From Faecalibacter macacae (GTDB taxonomy: Bacteria > Bacteroidota > Bacteroidia > Flavobacteriales > Weeksellaceae), in NCBI RefSeq assembly GCF_003687725.1, contig NZ_RDOJ01000004.1, positions 124,001-188,000 on the forward strand: a DNA stretch of 64,000 nt, written 5' to 3'. Position numbers and translations under genes: made by a program. The notes under the pieces were generated by a model. The model ran no database searches, had not been told where the DNA came from, and saw nothing but the letters and a program-made list of their open reading frames with translations. Of the stretch, positions 5,902 through 36,537 are shown piece by piece (the first letter of the stretch is position 1; each line of letters starts with the position of its first letter).

Positions 5902-5928
5902 AACCTTTTTTAGAAAGCTGCATCTTAT
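5902..5928 (+). promoter_or_regulatory. Candidate ECF-sigma promoter of the first sigma/anti-sigma operon
   Basis: AACC (5902-5905), a 15-nt spacer, then CATCTTAT (5921-5928), ending 25 nt before the sigma-factor ATG. The same two boxes with 14- and 16-nt spacers occur at the same distance upstream of the second ECF operon (23743-23768, minus) and of ecotin (36510-36537, minus). AAC-type -35 boxes are typical of ECF sigma targets. The promoter role is inferred from this recurrence and position. Confidence 0.6.
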
Positions 5929-5953
5929 TATTAAAGCAACCATAATTACACAC

Positions 5954-6523
5954 ATGAGTTTATTTATCAGAACCAAAAAATCAGCTGAAGATCTCTTAGT
6001 CGAAAGACTAAAAAAAGGAGAGCAAAAAGCACAGCGAGAGATTTACGATCTATCGGCAAAAAAGATGCTATCGGTTTGTAGAAGTTACATTGCAGATTCG
6101 CATTATGCAGAAGATTGTATGATTAATGGATTCTGTAAAGTATTTAATCATATTAATAAATTCGAGAGTAAAGGAAGCTTTGAAGGATGGATAAGACGAA
6201 TTATGGTGAATGAATGTTTAACGTTTCTTCGATCTAACAAAACATTGATTTATTTGGACGATACAAAAGTTACAAATTACGATGATATTGATGACGAATT
6301 AGAAGAATTAGAATTCACGTTTAATGTTGAAGAAATGTTGCAACAATTACCAGAAACATATCGATTGGTTTTTAATCTTCATATTTTGGAAGATTATTCG
6401 CATCAAGAAATTGCCGAAGCTTTAAACATTTCGGTTTCGTCTAGTAAGACGCAATTGTTTCGAGCAAAAGCCAAACTAAAAGAAATCATCCTAACTAAAA
6501 AAAGAGTTCAAAATGAAATTTAA
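5954..6523 (+). CDS. RNA polymerase ECF sigma factor
   Basis: A 189-residue ECF-type sigma factor. Region 2 covers roughly residues 15-85 (with the FESKGSFEGWIRRIMVNE segment typical of Bacteroidota ECF sigmas) and region 4 roughly residues 130-185 (LPETYRLVFNLHILEDYSHQEIAEALNIS split over the helix-turn-helix). I chose ATG 5954; a TTG further upstream at 5858 would start inside a terminator palindrome. Its last bases overlap the next gene, the likely anti-sigma factor, by 11 nt. The three genes sigma, anti-sigma and outer-membrane protein form one operon. A candidate autoregulated promoter lies 25 nt upstream. Confidence 0.88.
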   Translation: MSLFIRTKKSAEDLLVERLKKGEQKAQREIYDLSAKKMLSVCRSYIADSHYAEDCMINGFCKVFNHINKFESKGSFEGWIRRIMVNECLTFLRSNKTLIYLDDTKVTNYDDIDDELEELEFTFNVEEMLQQLPETYRLVFNLHILEDYSHQEIAEALNISVSSSKTQLFRAKAKLKEIILTKKRVQNEI

Positions 6524-7175
6524 AGAATACATACAATCCGAAGTTAATCAAAAGGAAGTCGAGCCATCGCACGATGCTTTCGATCGTATTCAAGCTCGAT
6601 TAAATAATCAACCTGAAATTGTAGTTGAAAAATCTTCGACTAAAAAATGGTATGCTATTGCTGCAACAATTGTTGGTTTAGCAGTTTGTACAACTTTATT
6701 TTTCACTCAAAATAAAACTCAGAATACTGAAATTGTTTCAACAGAAGTGGAAACTAAAAATGATGCAATTACTTCTAAAGAATCGATAGAAGATCAATCT
6801 AAAATTGAAATAGAAAATGAAGTTCAGTTGGTAGAAAAATCAACTTCAAAGGAAAAAGAAGATATTAAAGTTGAACCTTTAAAATCTGAAAATTCAGAAG
6901 CTCAATTAGAAATAGCTGTTCAATCGACTAAGGAAATAGAACAAGAAAAACCAAAAGTTTCAAATCCTATTCCAACTCCAAGTTTGGCGAATGGTTTTAA
7001 ACAAAATCAAACTCAAATTGCAACGAATTTAGATACAGTGAAAGTGAATTCGAAGAAGAAAGGAAATTACGTAGATCCTAACATGTTATTGTATTCTATA
7101 GAGAATAAAGAATCTTTGAAAGAATCGAATAACCAGAAATCTAAAGTCGCAGTTATAGATCTGAACAAAAAATAA
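6513..7175 (+). CDS. Putative single-pass anti-sigma factor
   Basis: A 220-residue protein that I do not recognise as a named family, but whose layout and place suggest an anti-sigma factor. It has a short cytoplasmic N-terminus (1-45), one membrane helix (about 46-65, WYAIAATIVGLAVCTTLFF) and about 155 polar periplasmic residues rich in Glu, Lys, Ser and Thr. The N-terminus matches that of the protein at 21355-22710 in exact register: Pro18, Asp21, Ala22, an aromatic at 23, Ile26, Leu30. No zinc-binding anti-sigma motif is present. It overlaps the sigma gene by 11 nt and is followed after 27 nt by a beta-barrel gene. Confidence 0.6.
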   Translation: MKFKEYIQSEVNQKEVEPSHDAFDRIQARLNNQPEIVVEKSSTKKWYAIAATIVGLAVCTTLFFTQNKTQNTEIVSTEVETKNDAITSKESIEDQSKIEIENEVQLVEKSTSKEKEDIKVEPLKSENSEAQLEIAVQSTKEIEQEKPKVSNPIPTPSLANGFKQNQTQIATNLDTVKVNSKKKGNYVDPNMLLYSIENKESLKESNNQKSKVAVIDLNKK

Positions 7176-7202
7176 TCATCATCCATTAATAAAATACTAC
7201 AT

Positions 7203-8243
7203 ATGATAAAGAGAATTATCGTAGCAGGAATGCTGTGTCTTTTCGCTACACCAACTTTCGCTCAAAGCATCGGAATTGATTTCAATAAAATGGGCGATCA
7301 AGATAAAGTAAGTCCAAAAGTTCGTGAGAAAATGGACGAATTTCAATTGCAAATTCGTGGAATTGTCAACGAAGAGAAAGCAAAGCTTGATGAATCAATT
7401 CAAAAATTAGATAAAGATGTAGCTGAAGGTAAAATTACTAAAGAAGAGGCAGAAGAAACGAAAGTTCAACTGGCTGAAGCTTCATCGGAAATTATCAATG
7501 AAAGGATCCAAAAAGTTAACTTTGATTTGGATGATTTGATTAAAAAACAAGTTGCTTTTGCGATTCTGAACGGAAACGATGCGGATGCAGTTCCAACATT
7601 AGAAGATTTAAAAAAGAAACATCGTGCAACGCATAATTTAACTGGATACATTGGTTATGGATTTATGGGATTCTCTGATAAAACAGATGATAATTTAGAT
7701 GATCGTTTAGGATTTGCAAATAATTTTGAACTAGGATTAACGTATACAAAGCAATTTAATGCAGCTAGTCCGTGGTCCTTAAAATCGGGAATGATTTTTT
7801 CTTGGCGTACGACTCGTTTAGATGATGATTATAAATTTGTAAGAGATACGAACGGAAATACAACATTAGCGCACAGTGAAACATCTTTAGATAAAAGTAA
7901 ATTAAGAGGTTCTTATTTGATTGTTCCTTTAGGTTTGCAATATACTTTTGGAAACAAAGTAACAGTTGATGATTTTACATATTACAAAGAGAAAGATTTG
8001 GCGATTACTGCAAATGTGTATGGAGGTGTGAAGTTATCGAACAATAACATTGTAAAAGGGGATGATATTAGCCAAAGAGACAAAAAAGATTATAATTTAA
8101 ATCCTTTTGTTTACGGTGCTCAATTAACATTTAAGATAAATTCTGTTAATATTTACGCACGTAAAGAGTTCTCGAACTATTTTGATAAAAATACATTTGA
8201 TGACCGTAAGATGTTTCAATTCGGAATCAATTTTGGATTCTAA
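7203..8243 (+). CDS. Outer-membrane beta-barrel protein with periplasmic coiled coil
   Basis: A 346-residue protein with a signal peptide (residues 1-20, ending TPTFAQ), a charged helical region at about 35-115 with heptad-like Lys/Glu patterns, and a C-terminal region from about residue 140 with alternating hydrophobic strands. It ends in FGINFGF, the terminal aromatic expected of outer-membrane barrels. Function is unknown. As third gene of the ECF sigma operon it may supply the outer-membrane sensing part that is fused to the anti-sigma protein at 21355-22710. This link is inference from layout. Confidence 0.65.
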   Translation: MIKRIIVAGMLCLFATPTFAQSIGIDFNKMGDQDKVSPKVREKMDEFQLQIRGIVNEEKAKLDESIQKLDKDVAEGKITKEEAEETKVQLAEASSEIINERIQKVNFDLDDLIKKQVAFAILNGNDADAVPTLEDLKKKHRATHNLTGYIGYGFMGFSDKTDDNLDDRLGFANNFELGLTYTKQFNAASPWSLKSGMIFSWRTTRLDDDYKFVRDTNGNTTLAHSETSLDKSKLRGSYLIVPLGLQYTFGNKVTVDDFTYYKEKDLAITANVYGGVKLSNNNIVKGDDISQRDKKDYNLNPFVYGAQLTFKINSVNIYARKEFSNYFDKNTFDDRKMFQFGINFGF

Positions 8244-8350
8244 TCGTCATTTTGAACTCGTTTCAACATCTCATCAATTAATGATGTGATCCTGAAATAA
8301 ATTCAGGATGACTATAATGATTTGTCATTCTAAGCTTTTCGAAGAATCTA
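8244..8350. repeat. REP-like palindromic intergenic element
   Basis: An imperfect inverted-repeat segment: gtcattttgaactcgtttc ... gatcctgaaataaattcagg atgac, followed by a half unit gtcattctaagcttttcgaagaatct (8323-8348). Sequences of this style (GTCATTCTGAA... / ...TTCAGGATGAC) recur between genes in flavobacterial genomes, as I recall. It sits between convergent genes. Only one copy is in this window. Confidence 0.5.
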
Positions 8351-8363
8351 ATTTTATAACATT

Positions 8364-8397
8364 AAAAAACGCGAAGCTTTTTAGTTTCGCGTTTTTT
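8364..8397. terminator. Bidirectional terminator between convergent genes
   Basis: Stem aaaaaacgcgaa / tttcgcgtttttt with a 9-nt loop. It serves the beta-barrel gene on the plus strand and the PH-domain gene on the minus strand, whose stop codon lies in the loop. Confidence 0.8.
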
Positions 8398-8806
8398 GTA
8401 GGTAAATGATATTGGGATTTATTTGTTGTAATTCTTGAATGAATTTCTCTAAATCTTTAGGTGAAATCAGGACAGAATCATAAGTATTATATAAGATTTC
8501 GATTCGATGAATTGATAATGCAGGAGAACTTATTAAGCTTTTAGATGATTTAATTTCTTTTATCTTCTCAATTTCAATTTTTTTATGAAATATAAAACCA
8601 GATTGAACCACTAATTTTTTTGAATTGGAGTCAATGGTATATATGGTCGAAAATAGTAAGTAAGTTATGAAAATGAATAATACCCCAATGACGATTGTTC
8701 CAACAAGATTAAATTCTTTATAGACAAAATAAAATAAAGAGATAAATGGGATATAAGCGATAAGAATAAGATCAATTCCAATTTTAGAGGAATATTTTGT
8801 GGTCAT
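8381..8806 (-). CDS. PH-domain membrane protein (YyaB-like)
   Basis: A 141-residue protein with two hydrophobic helices (about 12-30 and 34-52) followed by a soluble domain of about 85 residues. The phrase YTIDSNSKKLVVQSGFIFHKK (split at the glycine turn) and the closing KDLEKFIQELQQINP match the small bacterial PH-like family represented by YyaB. The function of these proteins is unknown. It stands alone on the minus strand. Confidence 0.6.
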   Translation of the reverse strand: MTTKYSSKIGIDLILIAYIPFISLFYFVYKEFNLVGTIVIGVLFIFITYLLFSTIYTIDSNSKKLVVQSGFIFHKKIEIEKIKEIKSSKSLISSPALSIHRIEILYNTYDSVLISPKDLEKFIQELQQINPNIIYLQKTRN

Positions 8807-8830
8807 AATACATTTATTTTCTATAAAGAT

Positions 8831-8863
8831 AAAAAACGCTACCCAATTTGGATAGCGTTTTTT
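8831..8863 (-). terminator. Terminator after the HMG-CoA reductase operon
   Basis: Stem aaaaaacgctaccc / ggatagcgtttttt around a 5-nt loop, just past the stop of the small membrane protein. Confidence 0.75.
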
Positions 8864-8866
8864 GTT

Positions 8867-9148
8867 TTATTTCTGTCTAATCGTCATTAATAAATGCTGA
8901 ATTACAACAACTAATCCAACTGATATTAGGAATGTAATTCCGGTCTGAAAAGCCAAACTAGGATTTGCACCTTCCATTTTCATAAATAGTATGTAAGCAA
9001 TTGCAGTTCCTGCTAGCTGCATGGTTGCACTTCTAATTCCGACTTTATTAATAGACCAACGATCTTTTGCCAAGAATCCAAAAATCAATTGATGAATTGT
9101 TGGAATCAAAAGACAAAAAAACGCGATTAATGTGTATGTTAAAACCAT
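8867..9148 (-). CDS. Small membrane protein of unknown function
   Basis: A 93-residue protein with three likely membrane helices (about 3-25, 42-60 and 67-88) and short polar loops (LAKDRWSINKVG). I do not recognise a family. Its ATG overlaps the stop codon of the YkgJ-like gene by one base, so it is probably translated as part of the same operon. Confidence 0.6.
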   Translation of the reverse strand: MVLTYTLIAFFCLLIPTIHQLIFGFLAKDRWSINKVGIRSATMQLAGTAIAYILFMKMEGANPSLAFQTGITFLISVGLVVVIQHLLMTIRQK

Positions 9149-9636
9149 TACAATTTTATTTCTTTTTGCATTTGTTCAACCACTTCGTAAGTTGCCGGAC
9201 AAATTAATGTATTCTTAATTGTGAGATGATTGATTTGATAAAACTTTTTGCGATCCGTATGTGGATATTCGCGACAAGCTTTTGGACGATCTTCGTAAAC
9301 TAAACAATAATTATCCGAATCTAAAAAAGGACAAGGTGTTTGTTGTAAAACGTAATCGTTATCTTCATCAATACGCAGATATTTCTCTATAAATTGACTT
9401 GGTTTCAAACGAAATACATGCGCCAAACGTTCAATATCTTTATTTGTAAATAAAGGGCCAGTTGTTTTGCAACAATTCGCACACGATAGACAATCGATAC
9501 GATCGAAAACTTCTTCGTGAATTCCCTCCATTTGCTGGTCTAAATTTTTAGGTGGTTTTTTCTTCAGCTTCGCTAAAAACGCTTTATGTTCTTTTTGTTT
9601 TTCGCGCGCTTTTTTGAAATATTCTTCTAAATTCAA
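9148..9636 (-). CDS. YkgJ family cysteine-cluster protein
   Basis: A 162-residue soluble protein of the zinc- or iron-binding YkgJ family. Cysteines at 49, 52, 55 and 56 (CLSCANCC), 102, 111 and 121 (KACREYP) fit the family pattern of a metal cluster; the exact function is not established. The start is TTG at 9636, one base past the HMG-CoA reductase stop. No in-frame ATG lies nearby, and MNLEEYF is a sensible N-terminus for the family. It is the middle gene of the reductase/YkgJ/membrane-protein operon. Confidence 0.8.
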   Translation of the reverse strand: MNLEEYFKKAREKQKEHKAFLAKLKKKPPKNLDQQMEGIHEEVFDRIDCLSCANCCKTTGPLFTNKDIERLAHVFRLKPSQFIEKYLRIDEDNDYVLQQTPCPFLDSDNYCLVYEDRPKACREYPHTDRKKFYQINHLTIKNTLICPATYEVVEQMQKEIKL

Positions 9637-9637
9637 C

Positions 9638-10990
9638 CTAGTCTTTTTTAATTTCTTCTACAGATTTTACACCTCTTAATTTACAGAACTCTTCAATAAC
9701 AAAATGGTGAGTAACCGTTTTATCTTTAAAGAAGTTTACAAAATATTTCTTCTCATCTTCTGTCGCTTCTAATTGATTCAAGATATTCATTAAGTGCATT
9801 TTCATGTGACCTTTCTGAATTCCTGTTGTAACTAAAGAACGTAAAGCTGCAAAATTCTGAGCTAAACCTGCAACTGCGACAATTCCCATCAATTCGCCAG
9901 CAGAAGGTTTTCCTAAAATTCCTAACGCTAATTTTACGATTGGGTGTAAAGAAGTTAAACCTCCAATTGTACCTAATGCAGTTGGTAAATCAATCCAAAA
10001 ACGGAAAATTCCATCTTTTACTTCGCAATGTGTCAAAGAAGAATATTGTCCATCTTTTGCCGCGTAACTATGTGCACAAGCTTCAACTGCACGGAAATCG
10101 TTTCCAGTTGCGATTACAACCGAATCAATTCCGTTCATAATTCCTTTGTTATGCGTCGTTGCACGATATGGTTCGATTTCAGCAATACGAACTGCGCGAG
10201 AGAATTTCTCTACAAATTCTTCAGCTGAAACATTTCCTTCCGCTAATTGTTCAACCGGACAAGAAACTTCAGCTCTAACAATACAATCTGGAGTAAAGTT
10301 AGATAAGATACACATTACAATTTGTAAAGAGTCTTTTTCTTCAGTACTGAAAGTTGCATCAGCATCAATTTCATTTTTTAAAGTTTTAGCAAATTGCTCT
10401 AAACAAGAATTGATAAAGTTTGCACCCATCGAATCTACTGTTTCAAAAGATCCTTTGATTTGGAAGTAATTTTCTAAATCGGCAGTTTTATCAATTAATT
10501 CAAGATTTAAAATACCACCATTACGCGCACGCATGTTTTTTGTGATATCGTTAGTTTCTTCAATTAATTTCGCTTTGATTGTAGCTTCAAATGCATTTCT
10601 TAGTTTCTCAACATCACCTTCGTACATAAAATGAACGTGACCTAATTTAGTTGTTGAAATAACTGTTGTTTTAAATCCTCCACGATCTAACCAAAACTTA
10701 GCAGCTTTAGAAGCAGCAGCAACAACAGAAGATTCTTCAACCGCCATAGGGATTGTGTATAATTCGTCGTTAATTAAAAAGTTTGGCGCCAGACCAAATG
10801 GCATATAGAAATTTGAAATTGTATTTTCAGAGAATTCATCGTGCAGTTTTTGTAAATCTGCATCGTCGTTCCAATATTGTTTTAAAGTTTGGATGGCTTT
10901 TTCATCACCATTAAGGTATTCATTAACTAACCATTCAATTTTTCCTTCTTTCGATAATTTCGAAAATCCTTCAACGGGTTGATGTTTCAT
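9638..10990 (-). CDS. Hydroxymethylglutaryl-CoA reductase, class II
   Basis: A 450-residue HMG-CoA reductase of the class II ('degradative') type, interconverting HMG-CoA and mevalonate. The catalytic set is visible: Glu85/Glu86 in the EESSVVAAAS motif, the DSMGAN segment at 186-191, Lys282 in NKGIMNG, Asp298 in TGNDFRAVEA and a C-terminal His pair at 428-429. In Flavobacteriia this class is thought to work biosynthetically in the mevalonate route to isoprenoids; that is family knowledge, not shown here. No other mevalonate-pathway gene is in the window. A TAATTTTG element on the minus strand (11016-11023) may be its -7 box. Confidence 0.92.
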   Translation of the reverse strand: MKHQPVEGFSKLSKEGKIEWLVNEYLNGDEKAIQTLKQYWNDDADLQKLHDEFSENTISNFYMPFGLAPNFLINDELYTIPMAVEESSVVAAASKAAKFWLDRGGFKTTVISTTKLGHVHFMYEGDVEKLRNAFEATIKAKLIEETNDITKNMRARNGGILNLELIDKTADLENYFQIKGSFETVDSMGANFINSCLEQFAKTLKNEIDADATFSTEEKDSLQIVMCILSNFTPDCIVRAEVSCPVEQLAEGNVSAEEFVEKFSRAVRIAEIEPYRATTHNKGIMNGIDSVVIATGNDFRAVEACAHSYAAKDGQYSSLTHCEVKDGIFRFWIDLPTALGTIGGLTSLHPIVKLALGILGKPSAGELMGIVAVAGLAQNFAALRSLVTTGIQKGHMKMHLMNILNQLEATEDEKKYFVNFFKDKTVTHHFVIEEFCKLRGVKSVEEIKKD

Positions 10991-11015
10991 ATTGGAGATT
11001 AAAGTTTATTTATTG

Positions 11016-11023
11016 CAAAATTA
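11016..11023 (-). promoter_or_regulatory. Candidate -7 element for HMG-CoA reductase
   Basis: TAATTTTG on the minus strand matches the Bacteroidota TAnnTTTG consensus, 25 nt before the reductase ATG. No clear -33 TTG was found. Confidence 0.4.
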
Positions 11024-11131
11024 ATAAGGTTTCATATATAAAGGTGTATAAAAATTCCTAAAAAGCCTATTTATTTAACATTGAATTGAGCTCTACCTAA
11101 TGATTTACCATTTATAAGGAAGTTTTTTTAT

Positions 11132-11139
11132 TATATTTG
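11132..11139 (+). promoter_or_regulatory. Candidate -7 element for dipeptidyl peptidase IV
   Basis: TATATTTG matches the TAnnTTTG consensus, 31 nt before the ATG at 11171. The -33 region is only a T-rich stretch. Confidence 0.45.
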
Positions 11140-11170
11140 ATAGTTTATACACATGTTTTAGGATAAGATT

Positions 11171-13333
11171 ATGAAAAAGACTTTATTAAGTTTTCTGGTT
11201 TGTACAGTAAGTATGTATACTTATGCGCAGAAAATTACTTTAGAGAATATTTATGGAGGAAAATACGGTGAGCGATCTTTACGCGGCGTAAACTCTATGA
11301 ATGATGGTGAAAATTATACGATACTTAATGAACAAGGATTGGTGAAAAAAACATACCAATCAACATTAAATAAATCGATAGATAAAGATGTAGTTTTAGT
11401 TCCTGGTCGTTTTGAAGGATATGAGTTTTCGTCGGACGAGCGTTATGTATTATTACAAAACAACACCAATAGTATTTATCGTCACTCGCATACCGCAACG
11501 TTTGAAGTGTACGATACACAAACAAAATCTAAAGTAAAAGTATTTGATGGGAAACCAATTCAAGAACCTTTATTTTCTCCAGATGCTTCAAAAGTAGCTT
11601 TTGCTTTCGAGAACAATTTATATATCCAAGACTTAAAATCAAATCAAGTTACACAAGTAACAAAAGATGGGAAGAAAAACGAAATCATCAACGGAATTTG
11701 TGATTGGGTTTATGAAGAAGAATTTGGATTTGTTCGTCACTTTGATTGGAATGCAGACGGATCAGCTTTAGCTTTTGTTCGTTTTGATGAATCTAAAGTA
11801 AAAGAAATCAATATTCCGATTTACTACAATAATTTATATCCAGAAGAATTACGTTTTAAATATCCTAAAGCAGGTGAAGATAATTCTGAAGTAACTTTAA
11901 ATGTTTTTGATGTAAAAACTAAATCGACAAATAAAGTAGATTTAAGTGGAGTTCAGAATTATTACATTCCGAAAATCAAATTCTCTAATAAATCGAATTT
12001 ATTAACAGTTATCACATCAAATCGTCATCACAATAATGTAGATGTTTCTTTTTACGATATCAATTCAAAAAAAGTAAACAAGTTATTTACTGAAACGAAT
12101 AAAGCGTGGATAGAAACAGATAGTTTTACATTAGAATTCTTAAACGATAATTCGTTTTTATGGACTTCTGAACGTGACGGAAATAACCACATTTACCATT
12201 ATGCTGAAAATGGAAAATTAATTCGTCAAATTACAAAAGGAGATTGGGAGGTTACAAGATATTACGGATATAATCCAGTGAACAAAACAATCTACATTCA
12301 ATCGAATTCGAATAATGGAAAACGAGTTTCGACAGAACGTCAAATTTCGGCAATTTCATTAGACGGAAAAAAATCAAATCAGTTAACTAAACATGCTGGA
12401 ACTAACAATGCAGCATTTTCTAAAAACTTTACTTATTTCATCAATACGTTTTCGAATATCGAAACGCCACGAACAATTAGTTTGGTTGATGCAAAATCTG
12501 GCAAAGATTTAGGTGTGATTATTAACAACGAGCAAACAAAAGAACGTGTAAAAGCAGATAATATCGGGACGAAAGAATTATTCACGATTACAACTGCTGC
12601 AGGAAACGAATTGAATGCCTATGTAATCAAACCAAAAGATTTTGATCCGACTAAAAAGTACCCAGTTTTAATGTACCAATATTCTGGTCCAGGTTCTCAA
12701 AATGTAAATAACACATGGCAATCTACAAACGATTATTGGCACCAAATGTTAGCACAAGAAGGATATTTAGTTTTCTGTGTTGATGGTCGTGGAACAGGTT
12801 ACAAAGGAGAAGCGTTTAAGAAAACTACGTATATGCAATTAGGTAAATACGAAGTTGAAGATCAGATAGCTGCTGCTATCGAAATCGGAAAATTACCTTA
12901 CGTTGACGCTGCCCGAATCGGAATTTGGGGATGGTCTTTTGGTGGTTATATGTCGTCAAATGCTCTGTTTAAAGGAAATGATGTGTTTAAAGCTGCAATT
13001 GCAGTGGCACCAGTAACAAATTGGCGTTTTTACGATACGGTTTATACAGAACGTTTCATGAGAACTCCACAAGAAAATGCTTCTGGATATGATGATAATT
13101 CGCCAATTAATCACGTTGATAAATTCAATAAAGGAAGTTTCTTATTGGTTCACGGAACGGCAGACGATAATGTACATGCACAAAATGCGTACGAATTATC
13201 TGAAGCTTTAATCCAAGCGAACAAAGATTTCCAAATGTTGTATTACACAGATAAAGATCACGGAATTTACGGAGGTAACACACGAGTGCATTTATACCGT
13301 CAGATGACGAAATTCTTAAAAGATAATTTATAA
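11171..13333 (+). CDS. Dipeptidyl peptidase IV, S9 family
   Basis: A 720-residue secreted serine exopeptidase that removes X-Pro or X-Ala dipeptides from peptide N-termini. It has a signal peptide (1-19, ending MYTYAQ), an N-terminal beta-propeller and a C-terminal alpha/beta-hydrolase domain. The catalytic triad is readable: Ser589 in GWSFGGY, Asp665 in GTADDN, His697 in DKDHG. The double-Glu motif DWVYEEEFG that anchors the substrate N-terminus is present in the propeller. A POT di/tripeptide transporter follows after 16 nt, so released dipeptides could be taken up by the next gene's product. Confidence 0.93.
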   Translation: MKKTLLSFLVCTVSMYTYAQKITLENIYGGKYGERSLRGVNSMNDGENYTILNEQGLVKKTYQSTLNKSIDKDVVLVPGRFEGYEFSSDERYVLLQNNTNSIYRHSHTATFEVYDTQTKSKVKVFDGKPIQEPLFSPDASKVAFAFENNLYIQDLKSNQVTQVTKDGKKNEIINGICDWVYEEEFGFVRHFDWNADGSALAFVRFDESKVKEINIPIYYNNLYPEELRFKYPKAGEDNSEVTLNVFDVKTKSTNKVDLSGVQNYYIPKIKFSNKSNLLTVITSNRHHNNVDVSFYDINSKKVNKLFTETNKAWIETDSFTLEFLNDNSFLWTSERDGNNHIYHYAENGKLIRQITKGDWEVTRYYGYNPVNKTIYIQSNSNNGKRVSTERQISAISLDGKKSNQLTKHAGTNNAAFSKNFTYFINTFSNIETPRTISLVDAKSGKDLGVIINNEQTKERVKADNIGTKELFTITTAAGNELNAYVIKPKDFDPTKKYPVLMYQYSGPGSQNVNNTWQSTNDYWHQMLAQEGYLVFCVDGRGTGYKGEAFKKTTYMQLGKYEVEDQIAAAIEIGKLPYVDAARIGIWGWSFGGYMSSNALFKGNDVFKAAIAVAPVTNWRFYDTVYTERFMRTPQENASGYDDNSPINHVDKFNKGSFLLVHGTADDNVHAQNAYELSEALIQANKDFQMLYYTDKDHGIYGGNTRVHLYRQMTKFLKDNL

Positions 13334-23269: not shown

Positions 23270-23719
23270 TTATTCTGCTGGAATTGTAATTGTTTTTGAG
23301 ATGTAAATATCTGCACCTCCTGGATCTTTACCAGCCCAAACTCTAATTGTTTGTTCACCAGAAGTAGTTGGAGTAAATTTTAATGTTTTTACTGTTGGAC
23401 GAATATCATTAGTACAACTAACGTTATTCTCTTGTGATCCAAATATTCCTACCTTAAGTTCATTTACTTCAGCTGGTAAAATTCTTCTGAATTCTACGAA
23501 TTCTTGACAGCTTCCCGCTAAATTAAATGTTACTTTTACATTTGTTGTTTGTGATACAGGTTGAATTGAATCTAAGTTGACATCAATTGCAGTAGCTGGT
23601 ATAAAACCATAAGTGTAGAAAGGTTCGTTTGAGTCGTCATCTAAACAGCTGATTGTTGTTAAACCAACAAATACTAAAGCTAATAAGTAGCTGAATAATT
23701 TTGTCATCTTCATAGTCAT
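23270..23719 (-). CDS. Small lipoprotein, first gene of the second ECF operon
   Basis: A 149-residue protein with a lipoprotein signal (LTTISC, Cys at about 25) followed by LDDDS, an acidic start seen in many exported Bacteroidota lipoproteins. The mature part appears all-beta, with a cysteine pair (SCQEF and VSCTND) that may form a disulfide, and a closing segment SGEQTIRVWAGKD. I do not recognise the family. The SCLDDD start recalls NigD-like lipoproteins, but the protein is shorter and I cannot confirm a link. The ECF-type motif lies 23 nt upstream. Confidence 0.65.
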   Translation of the reverse strand: MTMKMTKLFSYLLALVFVGLTTISCLDDDSNEPFYTYGFIPATAIDVNLDSIQPVSQTTNVKVTFNLAGSCQEFVEFRRILPAEVNELKVGIFGSQENNVSCTNDIRPTVKTLKFTPTTSGEQTIRVWAGKDPGGADIYISKTITIPAE

Positions 23720-23742: not shown

Positions 23743-23768
23743 ATAAGATGTATAAAATTGAAAAGGTT
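23743..23768 (-). promoter_or_regulatory. Candidate ECF-sigma promoter of the second operon
   Basis: Read on the minus strand: AACC (23768-23765), 14-nt spacer, CATCTTAT (23750-23743), 23 nt before the lipoprotein ATG. It shares both boxes with the sites at 5902 and 36537. Confidence 0.6.
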
Positions 23769-29034: not shown

Positions 29035-31167
29035 TTATTTATATTCTTTAATTAAATTTTCTAAAACTTCAATAGCGGATTCTGCTAAGTTAGTTCCTGG
29101 TCCAAAAATAGAATGAGCTCCGTTAGCTAAAAGGAAATCATAGTCTTGTCTTGGAATAACTCCTCCAACTACAATATATACATCTTCGCGTCCTAAAGTT
29201 TTTAATTCTTTAACTACTTCTGGAACCAAAGTTTTGTGCCCAGCTGCTAAAGAAGATACTCCCAGAATATGAACATCATTTTCAATGGCTTGTTTTGCAA
29301 CTTCGGCAGGTGTTTGGAATAATGGTGCAATATCCACATCAAATCCCATATCTGCATAAGATGTTGCTACAACTTTTGCTCCACGATCGTGTCCATCTTG
29401 TCCCATTTTTGCAACCATAATACGAGGGCGTCGACCTTCTAATTCAGCAAATTCATCTGCTAATTTTCTTGCTGTTTCAAAGCTTTCCATTTTTCCTGCA
29501 TCCATAGCATAAACTCCTTGTATTCCTCTTGTAATCGCTTTGTGTCTTCCGTAAATTGCTTCTAAAGCATCAGAAATTTCTCCTAAAGTTACTCGACGAC
29601 GAGCTGCTTCAATAGATAATTCTAATAAGTTTCCGTTTCCAGATTTAGCAGCTTCAGTAATTTGAGCTAAGATTTCTTCAACTTTAACTTGATCACGTGT
29701 CTCGCGAATTTGCTCTAATCGATCAATTTGTTTTTGACGAACTGCTGTATTATCAATATCTAAAATATCGAATTCTTGTTGATCTAATTTAGATTGATAA
29801 GCATTAACACCAATAATTGCATCTTCACCAGAATCAATTTTAGCTTGCTTTTTAGCAGCAGCTTCTTCAATGCGCATTTTGGGAATTCCAGCTTCAATGG
29901 CCTTAGTCATTCCGCCTAATTCACGTACTTCTTGGATATATTCCCAAGCTTGATTTGCCATCTCATTAGTTAAAGCTTCAATCATAAAACTTCCACCCAT
30001 TGGATCGGCAGTTCGGCAAATTTGAGTTTCTTCTTGTAAAATAATCTGTGTATTACGTGCAATACGAGCCGAGAAATCTGTTGGTAAAGCAATAGCCTCG
30101 TCTAAGGCATTTGTGTGTAACGATTGTGTTCCACCTAAAGCAGCAGCTAAAGCCTCAATTGCTGTACGACCAATATTATTGTAAGGTTCTTGCTCTGTTA
30201 AACTCCATCCAGAAGTTTGACAGTGCGTACGTAACATTAATGATTTTTTATTTTTTGGTTCGAATTCTTGCATCAATTTAGCCCAAAGCATACGTGCAGC
30301 ACGCATTTTTGCAATTTCTTGCGTAAAATTCATTCCAATTGCCCAAAAGAATGATAAACGTGGAGCGAAATCGTCTACTTTTAATCCAGCTTCTAAACCA
30401 GTTTTTACATATTCGTATCCATCAGCTAAAGTGTAAGCCATTTCTAAAACTGGCGTAGCACCTGCTTCTTGCATATGGTAACCAGAAATAGAGATAGAAT
30501 TGAAACGTGGAATATTTTTAGAAGTATATTCAAAGATATCTGCAATGATTTTCATCGATGGCGTAGGAGGATAGATGTACGTATTACGTACCATAAATTC
30601 CTTTAAAATATCGTTTTGAATTGTACCTGATAATTGCTCTTGTGTAACACCTTGTTCTTCTGCAGCAACAATATAAAATGCTAAGATTGGTAAAACAGCT
30701 CCGTTCATTGTCATAGAAACTGATATTTTATCTAATGGAATTTCATTAAATAAAATCTTCATATCTTCAACAGAATCAATAGCAACACCAGCTTTACCTA
30801 CATCGCCAACTACACGTTCGTGATCCGAATCATATCCACGGTGTGTTGCTAAATCGAAGGCAACTGAAAGTCCTTTTTGACCAGCAGCTAAGTTTCTTTT
30901 ATAAAAAGCATTTGATTCTTCGGCAGTCGAAAAACCAGCATATTGACGAATTGTCCAAGGTTGACGAACATACATTGTACTGTACGGACCTCTTAAAAAA
31001 GGTGCAACTCCTGGTAAAAAATCTGTTTGTTTTAGATTTTTTATATCGTCAAAAGTATAATTGTTTTTTACTTGTAAACTATCTAATTCAAATTCTTCCA
31101 TTTCTGGTTGAACTGAACTTAATCTTCTTTCAAATCTAAGATTCGAAAAATTTGTTTTGTGATTCAT
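29035..31167 (-). CDS. scpA: Methylmalonyl-CoA mutase, large subunit
   Basis: A 710-residue coenzyme B12-dependent mutase interconverting methylmalonyl-CoA and succinyl-CoA. The N-terminal barrel begins with [20 protein letters not shown] and contains the [12 protein letters not shown] and [13 protein letters not shown] blocks. The C-terminal cobalamin-binding domain has the D-x-H-x-x-G motif (QDGHDRG) with the cobalt-ligand His at about 593. Many relatives carry the small subunit gene (mutA) directly upstream; here the upstream neighbour is a divergent, unrelated gene, so the partner is elsewhere or absent. Confidence 0.94.
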
Positions 31168-31297
31168 AACGCTAATATAAAAAATATCGACAGATATATT
31201 TTCAAATTTTCATGTAAAATGAATATTACAACTATATGATAAAGAGCTTTTTGGTAGGATTATTGAAGTTTTAAATCAAATCATAAAATCAACCAAC

Positions 31298-32332
31298 ATG
31301 AAATTAGACTTTAATAATCAGACAATTAATGAAATTATTGCATCTATTGATGAGAATAAAGCTATGGAATGGCAGATTGATATTTTAAATTTTTTGAGGA
31401 AATATCAAGAACAACACAGCGAAATTAAAATCAATGAAATGCAAGGTGAAAATATCTTTACGATTGCAATGAAACGTGAAAATATTCAGAACACAGTTAA
31501 AGAATTGAATAAATACACGAATGTTGAGCAAGGAGATACGACTTTGATTGCAAATTCGATTACTATGAAAGATGGTGTTATTGCATTAGCACAAGCGATT
31601 GAAGGAAAAATGGAAGCGTATTGTGTTGAGCCAACGAATGATATTAAAATTCCGTACACTGGACAAGATCAAAATTCTATTCACTGGGGATTGAATTATG
31701 TATATTTAACCGAGGCGCAAGTACAACAATCGGAAGATGTACTGCATCGAATAGAAAAAATTGCTGTTGAAACTAATGGAATTAAAGATGAAACTAAAGA
31801 ATTGTTATTTAATAACAATCAGCAGCAAACAGTCTACGAGGTTTTTAGTGTAAAATCATTTCCGATTGCTGTAAGAAGATTAAATGAAGAAAATTATTCA
31901 CTCATTGGTAATGTAAATATTAGTCAATCAAATGACGGACAATTACTTGTAGATTCACCTAATTTTCAAGAGCAAATTAATACTCAAAAAGCAGTTATAA
32001 TTAATGAAGATAATACTTTTAGATGGCTGACATCTGGAGAATATTTAGATGATGATAGTAATACAATTATAAATTTTGATCATATCGAAGAAGTTTTAAA
32101 GCCTTTTATCGATACGCGATTTGTAGTAATAAATTTTCCAGAAAAAGGAACAGGACAAGATGTGGTTACTTTGATTGTTGAAAGACGTTATATGGAAGAA
32201 TTTAGTTATCTAACTGACGGTTTAAAAGAACATGAAGTCCCTAAGCAAACGTATTTTTTAGGAGAATTCCCTGAAAATAACGACAAAGCAGCAATTCGTA
32301 AAGAAGTAAAGAGATTACTAACAACGAGTTAA
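31298..32332 (+). CDS. MenE-like protein lacking the ATP-binding P-loop (putative pseudoenzyme)
   Basis: A 344-residue protein without clear annotation. Read against my memory of flavobacterial o-succinylbenzoate-CoA ligases (also about 350 residues), the fold seems to run end to end. N-terminal: WQIDILNFLRKYQ, then EQGDTTLIANSITMKDGVIAL, then KMEAYCVEPTNDI. C-terminal: FRWLTSGEYLDDD (242-252), FDHIEEVLKPF, and EHEVPKQTYFLGEFPENNDK with Lys330 at the place of the late catalytic lysine. Yet the ATP-gripping TSGSTGxPK loop is replaced by INEMQGENI (about residues 45-55). I infer an inactive or altered ANL-superfamily paralogue. It has no signal peptide and stands alone. Confidence 0.45.
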   Translation: MKLDFNNQTINEIIASIDENKAMEWQIDILNFLRKYQEQHSEIKINEMQGENIFTIAMKRENIQNTVKELNKYTNVEQGDTTLIANSITMKDGVIALAQAIEGKMEAYCVEPTNDIKIPYTGQDQNSIHWGLNYVYLTEAQVQQSEDVLHRIEKIAVETNGIKDETKELLFNNNQQQTVYEVFSVKSFPIAVRRLNEENYSLIGNVNISQSNDGQLLVDSPNFQEQINTQKAVIINEDNTFRWLTSGEYLDDDSNTIINFDHIEEVLKPFIDTRFVVINFPEKGTGQDVVTLIVERRYMEEFSYLTDGLKEHEVPKQTYFLGEFPENNDKAAIRKEVKRLLTTS

Positions 32333-32374
32333 AAAAAAGAGCCGACTTAATAATTAAGTCGGCTCTTTTTTTTT
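32331..32374. terminator. Bidirectional terminator
   Basis: Arms agagccgacttaa / ttaagtcggctct around taa, with A and T runs, between the convergent genes at 31298 and 32373. Confidence 0.85.
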
Positions 32375-32642
32375 AATATTGAATATCTATTAATGAAGTT
32401 AATGGGATTAATATGCCATTTTTAATTTGTAAATATTTTTCAGTAACTGTCCAAACAGTTGTCTCAATTTTCTTTGGTCCTTGATCTGTTTGGAAAGTAA
32501 TATATGCTTTTGATTTAAACTCATTTCCTAATCGTACAGCTCCTATCAATTTTTCTTTCTGTACGTGAACTTCATCTATTGGCGCATCTAAGAATTTATA
32601 GTTTTGAACTTCTTCCTTCTCAATTAATTCAGCTTTAATCAT
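32373..32642 (-). CDS. Small conserved-looking cytoplasmic protein
   Basis: An 89-residue protein without signal or membrane segment, predicted mostly beta (AYITFQTDQGPKKIETTVWTVTEKYLQIKNG). I do not recognise a family. Frame, ATG start and a terminator placed exactly at its end support a real gene. Confidence 0.55.
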   Translation of the reverse strand: MIKAELIEKEEVQNYKFLDAPIDEVHVQKEKLIGAVRLGNEFKSKAYITFQTDQGPKKIETTVWTVTEKYLQIKNGILIPLTSLIDIQY

Positions 32643-32841
32643 CGTTCTCTCTTTTTTTGGTTTATTATATTTGTTCTTTCACACGTTACCGAATGTACAA
32701 ATTCGGTAAATAAAAAACTAACAAAAGTCATTAAAATTTTAATAAAAATTTTCCGTCTAATTTTGAGTTTTCACTGTGGTGTATATGTATTCAAAAAGTT
32801 GACCAAGATTTATTTATTCTAATATATTCATCTGAATTTCG

Positions 32842-32849
32842 TAATTTTG
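32842..32849 (+). promoter_or_regulatory. Candidate -7 element directly before era
   Basis: TAATTTTG matches TAnnTTTG and ends only 4 nt before the era ATG at 32854. If used, the transcript would be leaderless or nearly so. Confidence 0.45.
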
Positions 32850-32853
32850 CACC

Positions 32854-33741
32854 ATGTCAGACGAAAAGAAATTTAAATCCGGTTTTGTTAACATCATTGG
32901 TAATCCTAACGTAGGAAAATCAACGTTAATGAATTTAATGATGAAAGAGCGTTTAGTTATTGCAACACACAAGGCACAAACTACGCGTCATCGTATTAAA
33001 GGAATTTTAACTACGGAAGATTATCAGATTGTATTTTCTGATACTCCAGGAGTTTTAGATCCTGCGTACGAATTGCAAGCAAAAATGATGGAAGCAGTAA
33101 ACGAATCTTTGGTTGATGCTGATGTGATTCTTTATGTTGTAGAAATCGGAGAAAAACGTTTGAAAAATGAAGAAGTATTTACTCGTCTTCAAAAAACATC
33201 AACTCCAATTATTTTATTATTAAATAAAATTGATACAGCTACGCCTGATCGTCTGAATGAAGCTGTTGAGTATTGGCACGAATTATTACCTAATGCACAA
33301 ATTTTACCTATTTCTGCAAAAGAAAATGTAAATGTTGATATGTTAGTGAATAAAATTAAAGAGATGTTACCAGAAGGACCTCAATATTATCCAGAAGAGC
33401 AATTAACAGATCGCTCGGAACGTTTTATTGTGAATGAGGTAATTCGTGAGAAAATTTTATTAAACTATACAAAAGAGATTCCTTATTCTGTTGAAGTTGT
33501 AACAGAGCGTTTCAAAGAAGAAATGAATTTAATTTCTATTGATGCTGAAATTTTTGTTGAACGTGATTCTCAAAAAGGAATTATCATTGGGCATAAAGGT
33601 GAATCTTTATCAAAAGTAGGGAAAGAAGCCAGAGAAGAATTAGAAAAATTCTTTGATAAAAAGGTTTTCTTAAAGCTGTTTGTAAAGGTGAAAAAAGATT
33701 GGCGTAAAAAAGAAAATGATTTACGTCGTTTTGGTTATTAA
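32854..33741 (+). CDS. era: GTPase Era
   Basis: A 295-residue essential GTPase that binds 16S rRNA and assists 30S ribosome assembly. The P-loop GNPNVGKST is at residues 16-24, the switch II motif DTPG follows, and LLNKIDT is the guanine-specificity motif. The KH RNA-binding domain occupies the C-terminal third, with GIIIGHKGESLSKVG as its GxxG signature. It is a single gene followed by a terminator. Confidence 0.96.
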   Translation: MSDEKKFKSGFVNIIGNPNVGKSTLMNLMMKERLVIATHKAQTTRHRIKGILTTEDYQIVFSDTPGVLDPAYELQAKMMEAVNESLVDADVILYVVEIGEKRLKNEEVFTRLQKTSTPIILLLNKIDTATPDRLNEAVEYWHELLPNAQILPISAKENVNVDMLVNKIKEMLPEGPQYYPEEQLTDRSERFIVNEVIREKILLNYTKEIPYSVEVVTERFKEEMNLISIDAEIFVERDSQKGIIIGHKGESLSKVGKEAREELEKFFDKKVFLKLFVKVKKDWRKKENDLRRFGY

Positions 33742-33763
33742 ATAATCATTTTAAATAATAGTT

Positions 33764-33790
33764 AAGCGTTGATATTTCAACGCTTTTTTT
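33764..33790 (+). terminator. Terminator of era
   Basis: Arms aagcgttga / tcaacgctt around tatt, followed by a T run. Confidence 0.75.
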
Positions 33791-33855
33791 GTGCTTTAAA
33801 TTCTGAAAATTTGTAATTTTAGATAGAGATAAAAACCATTCTAAAACAAAACCTT

Positions 33856-34644
33856 ATGGCTACAATATTATTCCCAACAGATTTTTCTAACACAGCTAAC
33901 AATGCATTTATTTATGCATTAAACCTTGCGAAAGCAATCAACGCGGACATCAGAATGATTACGCTAAAAACTCATCTAAAAGAATACTTAAACATGCAAG
34001 AAGATGAGTTTGAGATTAAGGTGAATGAATTACTGGCAATTGCCAAAGACAACGAATTAGAAGATGTAAAAATTAAAAGTTCTTTAGAAATCGGAGACTT
34101 ATTAATTACTGTACTTGATATTGTACAAAAAGAAAATATCGATTATATCGTAATGGGTACAAATGGAGAAAATAGTTTTGGACAAAAATTCTTCGGATCT
34201 CAAACTTTAGCCGTTATTAATAATTCGCCAATTCCGGTTCTGGCAGTTCCTCATAATGTTGTTTTTCAAGAAAATCGAAAGTTTGCTTATGCATCAATGT
34301 TCGATCCAAAAGAAAAACCTGCAATTGAAAAAATGATAGGCTTTGCTAAAAAACATAATTCAACGTTAGATATTGTCCATGTAGAGAAGAAGGCAATGTC
34401 GATTGATATGATTATGAATAAGCGTGAATTGGAAGTAAATTATCCAGAAGCTAAAGTTGCAGTGCTTAAAAGTAAAGATGTAGAAACTGCATTATTAGAT
34501 TATTGCGAGATGTATCATATAGATGTTTTAGGTATGTTGTATCGTGAATTAAATCCTTTTCAAAGATTATTTACAGAAAGTCACAGCCGACAATTATTAA
34601 CAAGTGCAAATTTTGCAATATTAGTATTAAAAGGACGAAATTAA
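33856..34644 (+). CDS. Universal stress protein with two UspA domains
   Basis: A 262-residue tandem UspA protein. The first domain (about 1-135) has the ATP-binding G-2x-G-9x-G(S) motif in GTNGENSFGQKFFGSQT and ends with IPVLAVP. The second domain (about 140-262) is degenerate: the matching region reads GMLYRELNPFQRLFTESHS and lacks the glycine motif, though it ends AILVLKG. Family members bind ATP and act in stress survival; the specific role is unknown. It is monocistronic. Confidence 0.88.
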   Translation: MATILFPTDFSNTANNAFIYALNLAKAINADIRMITLKTHLKEYLNMQEDEFEIKVNELLAIAKDNELEDVKIKSSLEIGDLLITVLDIVQKENIDYIVMGTNGENSFGQKFFGSQTLAVINNSPIPVLAVPHNVVFQENRKFAYASMFDPKEKPAIEKMIGFAKKHNSTLDIVHVEKKAMSIDMIMNKRELEVNYPEAKVAVLKSKDVETALLDYCEMYHIDVLGMLYRELNPFQRLFTESHSRQLLTSANFAILVLKGRN

Positions 34645-34663
34645 TTCCAAATTATTCGATTTT

Positions 34664-34687
34664 AAAGCGATGTTTGACATCGCTTTT
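34664..34687 (+). terminator. Terminator of the universal stress gene
   Basis: Arms aaagcgatgt / acatcgcttt around ttg, followed by T residues. Confidence 0.75.
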
Positions 34688-34731
34688 TTATTGGCTAAAT
34701 TTTTGCGAAATTTATAATACAATTTGATCAA

Positions 34732-35976
34732 ATGACTGAAGAACAAAAAAAACAAAGTCTTAGAAAACATAAAACCATAGCAACAGGATTATTTGTATTG
34801 ATGGCGATCGTTTATGCTGTCATGGTTTATTTAGGTACAAAGTCTGAAGATAAATGGATTGGTTACGTAGAAGCTTTCTCAGAAGCCGCAATGGTTGGGG
34901 CTTTGGCTGATTGGTTCGCAGTTACCGCATTATTTAGTTATCCTTTGGGATTAAAAATTCCGCATACTAATTTGATTGAACAAAGTAAAAATTCAATCGG
35001 TGATAACTTAGGCAGTTTTGTAACAAATAATTTTTTAACTCCGTCTAACATTCGTCCCTATATAGAAAAACTAGATGTGGTGAAATTTGTAGCAGAATGG
35101 TTGCATAAGAAATCAAATCAAGAGGTTTTACAAGAAGAGATTATAGGTTTTGTAAAAAAGATTATAAAAGACTTAGACGACAAAGAAGTTGTAGATTTTT
35201 TATCCGATAAAGGTGATGAGATTATTAAACAATTTGATTTAAAAGATTTAGCCTCAACTGCGGTAACATATTTGGTTGAAAAAGATAAACACAGTGAAAT
35301 TTTAGATGTTATTTTGCCAAAAGCAAAAGCATATATAGAAGAAAGTGATGTTTTAATCGAAGATAAAATTAATGAAAAACATCCTGTGATTTCTTTTTTT
35401 GCAGGGAAAAAAATATCGAAAGGAGTTGTAAGTGGAGTGATTAGTTTTATTGAAGAGATAGAAGAAGACAAAGAACATCCGATTCGAAAAAATATACAAG
35501 ATTCATTACTTAAAATTGCCGAAAAAGCGAAGACAGATCCATATTGGGAAGAGAGAATTAATTCGATGCGAGATGAATTTGTCACAACAGATCGTATTGA
35601 AGAGTATGCTTCGGATTTATGGCAATCTTTGAAAATGAATTTAACTGAAAGTTTTGATCAAGACGATTCTACTTTACAGAAATATATTAAGAAAAACATA
35701 GAGAAACTATCACAAAATTTGAATGAAAATGAGGATATGATTCTTAAAATAAATGGATGGATTCGTCATTTTCTTTACCGAATGATTTTACGAAATGTAA
35801 CAGAAGTTGAAACTTTAATTAGTAAAACAGTAGGAGATTGGGAAGGAAAAGAATTAAGTGATAAATTAGAATTAGAAGTTGGTAAAGATCTACAATTTAT
35901 TAGAATTAACGGAACAATAGTAGGTGGAATAGTAGGATTGATAATTTATACAGTAACTCAATTATTCTTTCATTAA
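34732..35976 (+). CDS. DUF445 family membrane protein
   Basis: A 414-residue protein of the DUF445 family. It has a membrane helix at about 16-35 and another at the very end (about 393-412, GGIVGLIIYTVTQLFF). The family signature SEAAMVGALADWFAVTALF followed by PLGLKIPHTNLI is at about residues 50-80. The long middle part is charged and helical (repeated IEE/EDK runs) and probably lies in the periplasm or cytoplasm as a coiled structure. Function is unknown. Confidence 0.87.
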   Translation: MTEEQKKQSLRKHKTIATGLFVLMAIVYAVMVYLGTKSEDKWIGYVEAFSEAAMVGALADWFAVTALFSYPLGLKIPHTNLIEQSKNSIGDNLGSFVTNNFLTPSNIRPYIEKLDVVKFVAEWLHKKSNQEVLQEEIIGFVKKIIKDLDDKEVVDFLSDKGDEIIKQFDLKDLASTAVTYLVEKDKHSEILDVILPKAKAYIEESDVLIEDKINEKHPVISFFAGKKISKGVVSGVISFIEEIEEDKEHPIRKNIQDSLLKIAEKAKTDPYWEERINSMRDEFVTTDRIEEYASDLWQSLKMNLTESFDQDDSTLQKYIKKNIEKLSQNLNENEDMILKINGWIRHFLYRMILRNVTEVETLISKTVGDWEGKELSDKLELEVGKDLQFIRINGTIVGGIVGLIIYTVTQLFFH

Positions 35977-35980
35977 AAAT

Positions 35981-36013
35981 AAAAAAGTACAACTTACTAA
36001 GTTGTACTTTTTT
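35981..36013. terminator. Bidirectional terminator
   Basis: Arms aaaaaagtacaactta / taagttgtactttttt between the convergent DUF445 and ecotin genes. Confidence 0.85.
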
Positions 36014-36024
36014 ATTTAATATCG

Positions 36025-36486
36025 TTATTCGGCTGTTTTAACTTCTGTAGATGCAGACCATATTCTGTAATTTACTTCATATCCTTCTGGCGTGTAAATT
36101 ACGATTGGTAATCTGCTATTGTATCTTAATTTTTCCGATTGTGCATAAACTACTTTTTCAACTTGTTTATTATCTATACAAGCTTTTAAAGTTCCCGCGA
36201 TATTTCCATCAGATGTGAAATCGTAATACGTATATCCCCAACCTTGTAGATCTTTGGCTTCAACTTTACCTAATAAAAAATGGTTGTTACAAGCGTCTAC
36301 AGTTGTTTTTTTACCCACAAAAATTTCAACCATGTAATCATTTTCGTTTTCACGAGGTTCAACACGAATTACTTTTTGAACTTGACCATTTTCTGGTTTA
36401 GGAAACATTTTGATATCTTCTTTCATCTGTGCAAAACTTGTTATTGAACTGAATGATAATATACTAAATAATAAGATCTTTTTCAT
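36025..36486 (-). CDS. eco: Ecotin-family serine protease inhibitor
   Basis: A 153-residue periplasmic protein with a signal peptide (1-20, ending ITSFAQ). Similarity to E. coli ecotin is clear along its length: GWGYTYYDF, LRYNSRLPIVIYTPEGYEVNYRIW and cysteines at 66 and 103 that match the loop-bracing disulfide. By that alignment the reactive-site P1 residue is Leu100 (Met84 in E. coli) and P1' is Lys101. Ecotin inhibits trypsin-fold serine proteases as a dimer. An ECF-type motif identical in both boxes to those before the two sigma operons lies 23 nt upstream. Confidence 0.9.
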   Translation of the reverse strand: MKKILLFSILSFSSITSFAQMKEDIKMFPKPENGQVQKVIRVEPRENENDYMVEIFVGKKTTVDACNNHFLLGKVEAKDLQGWGYTYYDFTSDGNIAGTLKACIDNKQVEKVVYAQSEKLRYNSRLPIVIYTPEGYEVNYRIWSASTEVKTAE

Positions 36487-36509
36487 TTTTTAGATTTTGA
36501 ATTATACTA

Positions 36510-36537
36510 ATAAGATGAAAAAGGAGTGCCAATGGTT
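36510..36537 (-). promoter_or_regulatory. Candidate ECF-sigma promoter of ecotin
   Basis: Read on the minus strand: AACC (36537-36534), 16-nt spacer, CATCTTAT (36517-36510), 23 nt before the ecotin ATG. It has the same boxes as the sites at 5902 and 23768. Confidence 0.55.

Follow-up and report, generated by a model that had tools for sequence, protein, structure and literature searches.

A probable ECF-type promoter class shared by sigma-factor operons and the protease inhibitor ecotin in Faecalibacter macacae and its relatives

Two operons encoding extracytoplasmic function (ECF) sigma factors, here termed sigma-1 and sigma-2, lie in a 64-kb stretch of the 2.9-Mb genome of Faecalibacter macacae (the whole stretch is referred to as the window), which also encodes ecotin, an inhibitor of serine proteases. 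The same short bipartite element, AACC followed after 14 to 16 nt by CATCTTAT, stands just before the sigma-1 gene, before the small lipoprotein gene that opens the sigma-2 operon, and before ecotin, which raises the question of whether two sigma circuits and a protease inhibitor are read from one kind of promoter. Such a shared ECF promoter had been proposed in the first-pass annotation, and all three sites were found exactly where it placed them and at the same distances from the start codons (Table 1), as counted from the last T of the −10 box.

The three sites are very probably promoters of one ECF-sigma class, from which three ECF paralogues would be expressed along with ecotin and a small set of envelope genes. 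They have an AAC-type −35, a short −10 and near-fixed spacing (N14, N15 and N16 in the window), as ECF promoters do, and the consensus of the class would be a −35 of AACC(A/T)TTT, a spacer of 14–16 nt and a −10 around (A/G)TCT(T/A)(A/T). The element precedes the sigma factor's own operon, both in the two ECF operons of the window and, with a degenerate −10, in a third on contig C14, and since each ECF operon carries its own copy, positive autoregulation is implied. Boxes as short as these might instead form the operator of a DNA-binding regulator, an unlikely alternative given that no symmetry is evident by eye, that the distance to the starts is tight and the spacing ECF-like, that the boxes stand before three groups of ECF paralogues, and that no exact sigma-A −7 box (TAnnTTTG) was found in the 130 nt before each of the three starts.

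Conservation was followed in 14 same-genus genomes (the Empedobacter group), including that of the window; ecotin, the lipoprotein and the sigma-1 partner were matched in all of the 13 others searched, and where G001 and G008 have two lipoprotein genes in tandem, the one farther upstream was taken. Before the orthologues of all three genes, two boxes stand out from otherwise diverged sequence, and an AAC...TCT core with gene-specific spacing is present in all 14 genomes. The ecotin element has AAC(C/T) and CATCT throughout (N16 in 12 genomes, N15 in two), the element nearest the lipoprotein has ACGCAACC in 14 of 14, with [AG]TCT in 11 (N14 in nine, N15 in two) and CTCT in three, and the sigma-1 element has TGTAAC(C/T), N15 and TCT in 14 of 14. 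The boxes had been described as identical at the three promoters, which stands for the conserved core class but not for CATCTTAT at sigma-1: it is exact in only two of the 14, the window's genome and G005, its closest relative in this set, while the remainder read GTCTAT (10), GTCTAG (one) or ATCTAT (one). The identity is thus partly lineage-specific: the class is genuinely shared, but part of the exact agreement in the window arose by local coincidence.

Copy number is less telling. In the window, AACC-N12-19-CATCTTAT occurs three times where 0.07 are expected, and none of 100 dinucleotide shuffles reached three. The genome-wide enrichment by which the motif was to be checked did not appear, the exact pattern (N12-19) giving six copies and a reversed control 10. 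Totals without excess are uninformative, and it is the position of the copies that carries information: the three in the window are immediately upstream of start codons, and the remaining three fall within coding sequence (one sense, two antisense); L015 was omitted from this look at genomic context. For at least three of six copies to fall within the 0–45 nt ahead of a start, in the correct orientation, the binomial P is ∼2e-4 (assuming 2,700 genes), a value to be taken as a guide only, because the copies were noticed for their position. The unenriched totals are what chance similarity of AT-rich intergenic sequence would give, an explanation made very improbable by the core kept in 14 of 14 species and by a matrix and patterns obtained from other genera. 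As judged from sequence, conservation and this matrix are stronger evidence than copy counts.

The matrix derives from a scan of named genomes with the sigma-2 alignment, which gave at least 80 loci; all counts refer to the 80 listed, one of which (L153) bears the name Bifidobacterium breve, presumably because the assembly is mislabelled. In all 80 the ECF gene is directly followed by a partner of at least 350 aa, recognized by a profile built from the window's partner and relatives of it; L148, one of the 80, also contributed a row to this profile. Upstream sequence was scanned at 78 of them, L172 and L173 being left out for an upstream stretch of less than 300 nt. A strict pattern was found upstream of the operon at 21 of the 78 loci (0 reversed, 0.42 shuffled), a second pattern, GCAAC[CT]NTT, 9–13 nt, NRTCT, at 41 (0 reversed, 0.12 shuffled) and a looser pattern at 58 (five reversed, 4.77 shuffled). 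Most of the second-pattern sites (33 of 41) lie 400–620 nt before the ECF gene, a distance that roughly matches the start of the first gene in the window's operon. By this pattern, the sigma-2 promoter recurs across Bacteroidota. The matrix was built from 20 of the 21 strict-pattern sites, one being dropped for spacing and none coming from Empedobacter, and when run over the window it ranks the three sites first, second and third (sigma-2 29.4, ecotin 19.3 and sigma-1 13.6 bits), the next best place scoring 11.5.

Several observations weigh against this reading. The best matrix score in 100 shuffles had a mean of 14.8 and a 95th percentile of 19.1, so the sigma-1 site falls below the mean shuffle maximum and the ecotin site lies at about the 95th percentile; by score alone the sigma-2 site is certain, the ecotin site borderline and the sigma-1 site not significant. 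The second pattern is absent within 800 nt at 37 of the 78 named loci, and a relaxed pattern gave no excess genome-wide (40, with 44 reversed). Sigma-A boxes with one mismatch lie near each gene, such as TATCTTTA before the lipoprotein, and the ecotin element shares bases with a sigma-70-like pair, TTGGCA-17-TAGTAT, from a promoter-like scan that found five where 1.5 were expected. Among the further targets discussed below, a longer open frame could include the site before an alpha-2-macroglobulin-like protein, and the third ECF gene has TTG as its start codon.

The low score of the sigma-1 site agrees with a difference in sub-type. Its left flank, TGTAACC, differs from ACGCAACC and ACRCAACC at the other two sites, and together with its −10 this makes two sub-types likely. 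There is about an even chance that these reflect two separate ECF specificities, in which sigma-1 would read a TGTAACCTTTT...GTCTAT type and sigma-2 and/or the third ECF an ACRCAACC(A/T)TT...CATCTTA type that includes ecotin, the identical −10 boxes of the window being convergence within a generic ECF −10; this is compatible with a single promoter class. Over the 14 genomes the flank and −10 of sigma-1 are unlike the other two, sigma-1 has the poorest score of the three sites with the matrix built on sigma-2 loci, and a small lipoprotein elsewhere in the genome (G000 C42:40426) has the sigma-1-type flank TTGTAACCTTTT; however, the AAC and TCT cores are shared, the spacings differ by at most 2 nt, and sigma-1, sigma-2 and the third ECF resemble each other in regions 2 and 4, so that overlap is likely.

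How far the class extends was assessed with a sequence-only model of 32 promoters of sigma-2 operons and ecotin, run on the 14 same-genus genomes. On the window only, its three best places are the three sites, and sigma-1, which was not in training, has E 0.0046. In the window's whole genome there were 18 matches with E up to 10, of which the best 12 (E up to 1.1) are considered here, two of them being training sites. Five of the 10 others lie 10–39 nt before a start (binomial P ∼1e-6, again assuming 2,700 genes), namely before the alpha-2-macroglobulin-like protein, which carries an MG2 domain, the small lipoprotein on C42, a TonB-like protein (TonB_C E 6.5e-4, below the cut-off), sigma-1, and the third ECF operon, which carries CACCCAACCTTTT...CATATTAT, the same promoter type with the degenerate −10 mentioned above. 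Of the other five, three fall within genes, one of them sense and two antisense, a fourth is part of a terminator-like repeat, and for the fifth no start was found. The element is also present before the alpha-2-macroglobulin-like gene in G005, G003 and G012, the TonB-like gene in G005 and G012, and the third ECF in G003 and G012. Ecotin would thus not be the sole target, and the candidates include a second family of protease traps. Mechanistically, a membrane partner would release its sigma, presumably in response to a stress signal, RNA polymerase would start 6–10 nt after the −10 box, and expression of the sigma operon, ecotin, the alpha-2-macroglobulin-like and TonB-like proteins, the small lipoprotein and the third ECF operon would be raised.

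The element was seen in two further settings in same-genus genomes. It stands just before a gene for a VIT-domain protein of more than 650 aa at L349 and L350 (in G006 and G009; Pfam was run for L349 only). Strong copies also lie ∼175–275 nt upstream (near position 1501) of a gene that presumably encodes a 5-formyltetrahydrofolate cyclo-ligase, the loci being L302, L303, L306, L316, L310 and L313 (in G007, G010, G009, G001, G006 and G011, respectively), and in L302 and L306 the interval encodes, by eye, a peptide of ∼43 aa (MSKxKRIHKTYKKSLF...) with one hydrophobic stretch. The idea that this copy drives 6S RNA was rejected, as a set of six loci, five of which bear the element, gave no Rfam match up to E 1.

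Which of the three sigma factors serves ecotin is a separate question. Orthologues of sigma-2 (>225 bits) were found in seven of 27 other-genus genomes searched, and in the five of these that have ecotin no ECF element precedes it, as rechecked over 350 nt. Conversely, genome G330 has a clear ECF element, AACCATTTGCCCGATTTTTGCATCTTA, at ecotin and no sigma-2 orthologue, from which it follows that sigma-2 is not required for the ecotin element. An assignment of sigma-2 as the ecotin regulator by co-occurrence, which had agreed with four outgroup genomes with ecotin, failed in the 27 genomes and was dropped (in the tree used here, three of 29 inner branches are weak). It is possible, and rather less than an even bet, that the third ECF drives ecotin in place of sigma-1 or sigma-2. 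G330 has a member of the third-ECF group, and the third-ECF operon in the window's genome itself bears the element, but G330 also has a sigma-1 relative, on a long branch, and the third-ECF group also has members in two genomes without the element at ecotin, G313 and G259. The simplest view of these distributions is overlapping recognition by three similar ECFs, and cross-talk between them is plausible from the similarity of their sigma regions. One strict regulon coupling two sigma circuits, as proposed, is not shown by these data, and no single sigma can be named. What they do support is that both ECF operons and ecotin have promoters of a common ECF type, with its core in 14 of 14 genomes and further envelope targets.

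The genes behind the three sites are summarized in Table 1. By gene layout and sequence, the sigma-2 operon is of the type of Das/Dma in Bacteroides thetaiotaomicron, where an ECF21 sigma factor is paired with an anti-sigma factor that spans both membranes, and its layout is the same, as can be compared with Dma2/Das2 (PMC13088901); the likeness is one of layout. That report gives no promoter motif, the word motif being absent from it, and its available part does not name ecotin. Among the 80 named loci, the sigma-2 partner has a hydrophobic segment in its first 130 aa in 79 and a C-terminal F, Y or W in 76, and outer-membrane barrels often end in an aromatic residue. Barrel matches of the window's own partner in Pfam are weak (E 0.0024, below the cut-off). 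In the sigma-1 operon, neither the partner nor the third gene matched a Pfam family below E 0.001, and the third gene is perhaps an outer-membrane barrel; the two together (6513–8243) resemble a split form of the fused sigma-2 partner, with an inner-membrane part and a possible outer-membrane part. The leader and start region of sigma-1 (window 5930–5960; L080–L091) is itself conserved, AATTAACACACGTG, and the start is apparently GTG in 12 of the 14 same-genus genomes and ATG in the window and G005.

Table 1. Candidate promoter elements, genes and neighboring features in the window.
Feature	Positions	Strand	Remarks
Candidate ECF-type promoter element, sigma-1 operon, AACC-N15-CATCTTAT	5902..5928	+	25 nt before sigma-1 start
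Candidate ECF-type promoter element, sigma-2 operon, AACC-N14-CATCTTAT	23743..23768	-	23 nt before lipoprotein start; best matrix match in window, 29.4 bits
Candidate ECF-type promoter element, ecotin, AACC-N16-CATCTTAT	36510..36537	-	23 nt before ecotin start; second-best matrix match in window
Sigma-1, ECF sigma factor, 189 aa	5954..6523	+	Pfam Sigma70_r2 and r4_2 above cut-off
Sigma-1 partner, likely anti-sigma, 220 aa	6513..7175	+	One hydrophobic stretch (by eye); overlaps sigma-1; conserved
Third gene of sigma-1 operon, 346 aa	7203..8243	+	Signal-peptide-like start (by eye)
Small lipoprotein, first gene of sigma-2 operon	23270..23719	-	Match in 22/60 relatives
Sigma-2, ECF sigma factor of Das type, 188 aa	22685..23251	-	Pfam search; alignment
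Dma-like sigma-2 partner, 451 aa	21355..22710	-	N-terminal part, transmembrane segment, long tether, C-terminal barrel-like domain
Ecotin, serine protease inhibitor, 153 aa	36025..36486	-	Pfam Ecotin 139.7 bits; NCBIfam NF002987 164.1 bits (cut-off 162)
Sigma-54-like 16-mer TGGCACTCCTTTTTCA within ecotin element	36516..36531	-	−24 intact (TGGCAC), −12 TTTC for TTGC; ends where ECF TCTTAT begins
Perfect 18-bp inverted repeat with terminal T run, terminator-like	5840..5875	.	Upstream of sigma-1 element
Perfect 16-bp inverted repeat with T run, terminator-like	36566..36598	.	Between tRNA-Asn and ecotin element; not called by terminator scan
tRNA-Asn	36599..36673	-	Upstream of ecotin

The small lipoprotein of the sigma-2 operon has no Pfam family above cut-off, and it is duplicated in tandem in G001 (L061/L074) and G008 (L058/L075), with the element before the first copy. 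A second element lies ∼160–190 nt upstream of the lipoprotein's own in eight of the 14 same-genus genomes (G007, G006, G008, G009, G002, G001, G013 and G010; loci L056, L057, L075, L059, L060, L074, L063 and L065), in L060 just after the end of an lpxB-like gene. It is followed by a conserved and apparently unstructured stretch, AAAGTT(T)AC...CTAACA, then by a hairpin with compensatory changes and a T run, and then by the lipoprotein's own element. The arrangement suggests a small RNA transcribed from a promoter of this class; no such second element and hairpin was seen in the window's genome.

At ecotin, the ECF element may have a history of its own. Ecotin is present in 178 of 306 genomes of the family, and 42 ecotin upstream regions from 12 genera, out of the 164 ecotin-bearing genomes outside Empedobacter, were scanned for sigma-54 promoters with weights set from the general consensus (the G324 ecotin, with no usable start, was omitted). 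The best sigma-54-like 16-mer beats shuffles (p < 0.05) in 21 of the 42 regions, with one more at 0.050; these sites occur in at least one genome in eight of the 12 genera, and 20 of the 21 end 23–36 nt before the start. Their weak points are that two of the eight genera, g17 and g51, are without an intact GG of the −24, that in g21 the −12 reads TTGG or TTGA and 10 of 19 regions pass, and that the test is missed by five of six in g17 and by all of g10, g47, g2 and g24. Some g21 genomes carry several ecotin genes (four matches in G172, at least three of them close together; contig C3). The sequences before ecotin in these sister genera resemble the −24/−12 type of the SM4 sigma-54 promoters of Flavobacterium psychrophilum (PMC9723704).

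In the window, the 16-mer in register with these sites (Table 1) has TGG at −24; unlike SM4, it has lost the GC at −12, and the ECF element overlies it. In register it scores 11.3, as against a maximum of 3.0 among 53 control ECF promoters (one of them, L064, taken at a wrong match), all of which its −24 score exceeds, and G005, G003, G012 and G330 also exceed all controls, which the other ten same-genus genomes do not. A tentative reading, somewhat short of even odds, is that ecotin changed its sigma factor in place. Its promoter would have been of the sigma-54 kind ancestrally in the family, and in the Empedobacter lineage the two boxes would have been joined by an ECF −35, 6 nt upstream of the −24, and by an ECF −10 immediately following the −12, by way of an overlapping dual-sigma promoter of which the window keeps the TGGCAC half. 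The odds are put no higher because a single locus is concerned, because the four same-genus genomes with the signal are closely related, and because the −12 half in G330 is possibly just the flank of the ECF −10. A sigma-54 origin would be sensible, since, in the part of the F. psychrophilum study available, sigma-54 promoters serve genes for protein quality and envelope stress, the SM4 targets including a protein with a C-type lysozyme inhibitor domain (PMC9723704).

ECF regulons are a known kind of system in Bacteroidota. The SM6 promoters of F. psychrophilum likewise have an ECF-type −10 before an ECF/anti-sigma pair and envelope genes, with several type 9 secretion system (T9SS) genes among the listed targets (PMC9723704); the SM6 −10 has a CGT box where the window has CAT, and CGT occurs at the same place in G022, G245 and G247. 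In Porphyromonas gingivalis, SigP/PorXY also places envelope (secretion) genes under ECF control, and the SigP motif, 5'-C(T)AAA(G/C/T)A(T)A(C)T(A/G)A-3', is unlike AACC...CATCTTAT (PMC4800418). For B. thetaiotaomicron, the available text of a 2020 paper states that no ECF motif was known (PMC7366714), and that of a 2025 paper ties SigW-1 and SigH-1 to a different, TGTT-type motif (PMC12596196). Cross-talk is also suggested there, as loss of Dma2 alters its own operon and dma3 is up in dma1 and dma2 mutants, according to the accessible part of the report (PMC13088901). Within the open-licence literature, no published link between ecotin and an ECF sigma factor was found, no work on ecotin regulation was among the matches listed for ecotin with sigma-54 in Bacteroidetes, and nothing was found for ecotin with a sigma factor in Empedobacter or Elizabethkingia.

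Three things seem to be new: a promoter class seen before operons of Das/Dma-type ECFs across Bacteroidota, the connection of this class with ecotin, and a possible change of sigma factor. The result gives a testable promoter sequence for the Das/Dma-type ECFs and links their promoter class to a protease inhibitor, and ecotin offers a readable case of a promoter that was possibly passed from sigma-54 to an ECF sigma factor without moving. If this is true, a periplasmic protease inhibitor would have left a sigma-54 envelope regulon for an ECF regulon that may also hold a second kind of protease trap, the alpha-2-macroglobulin-like protein.

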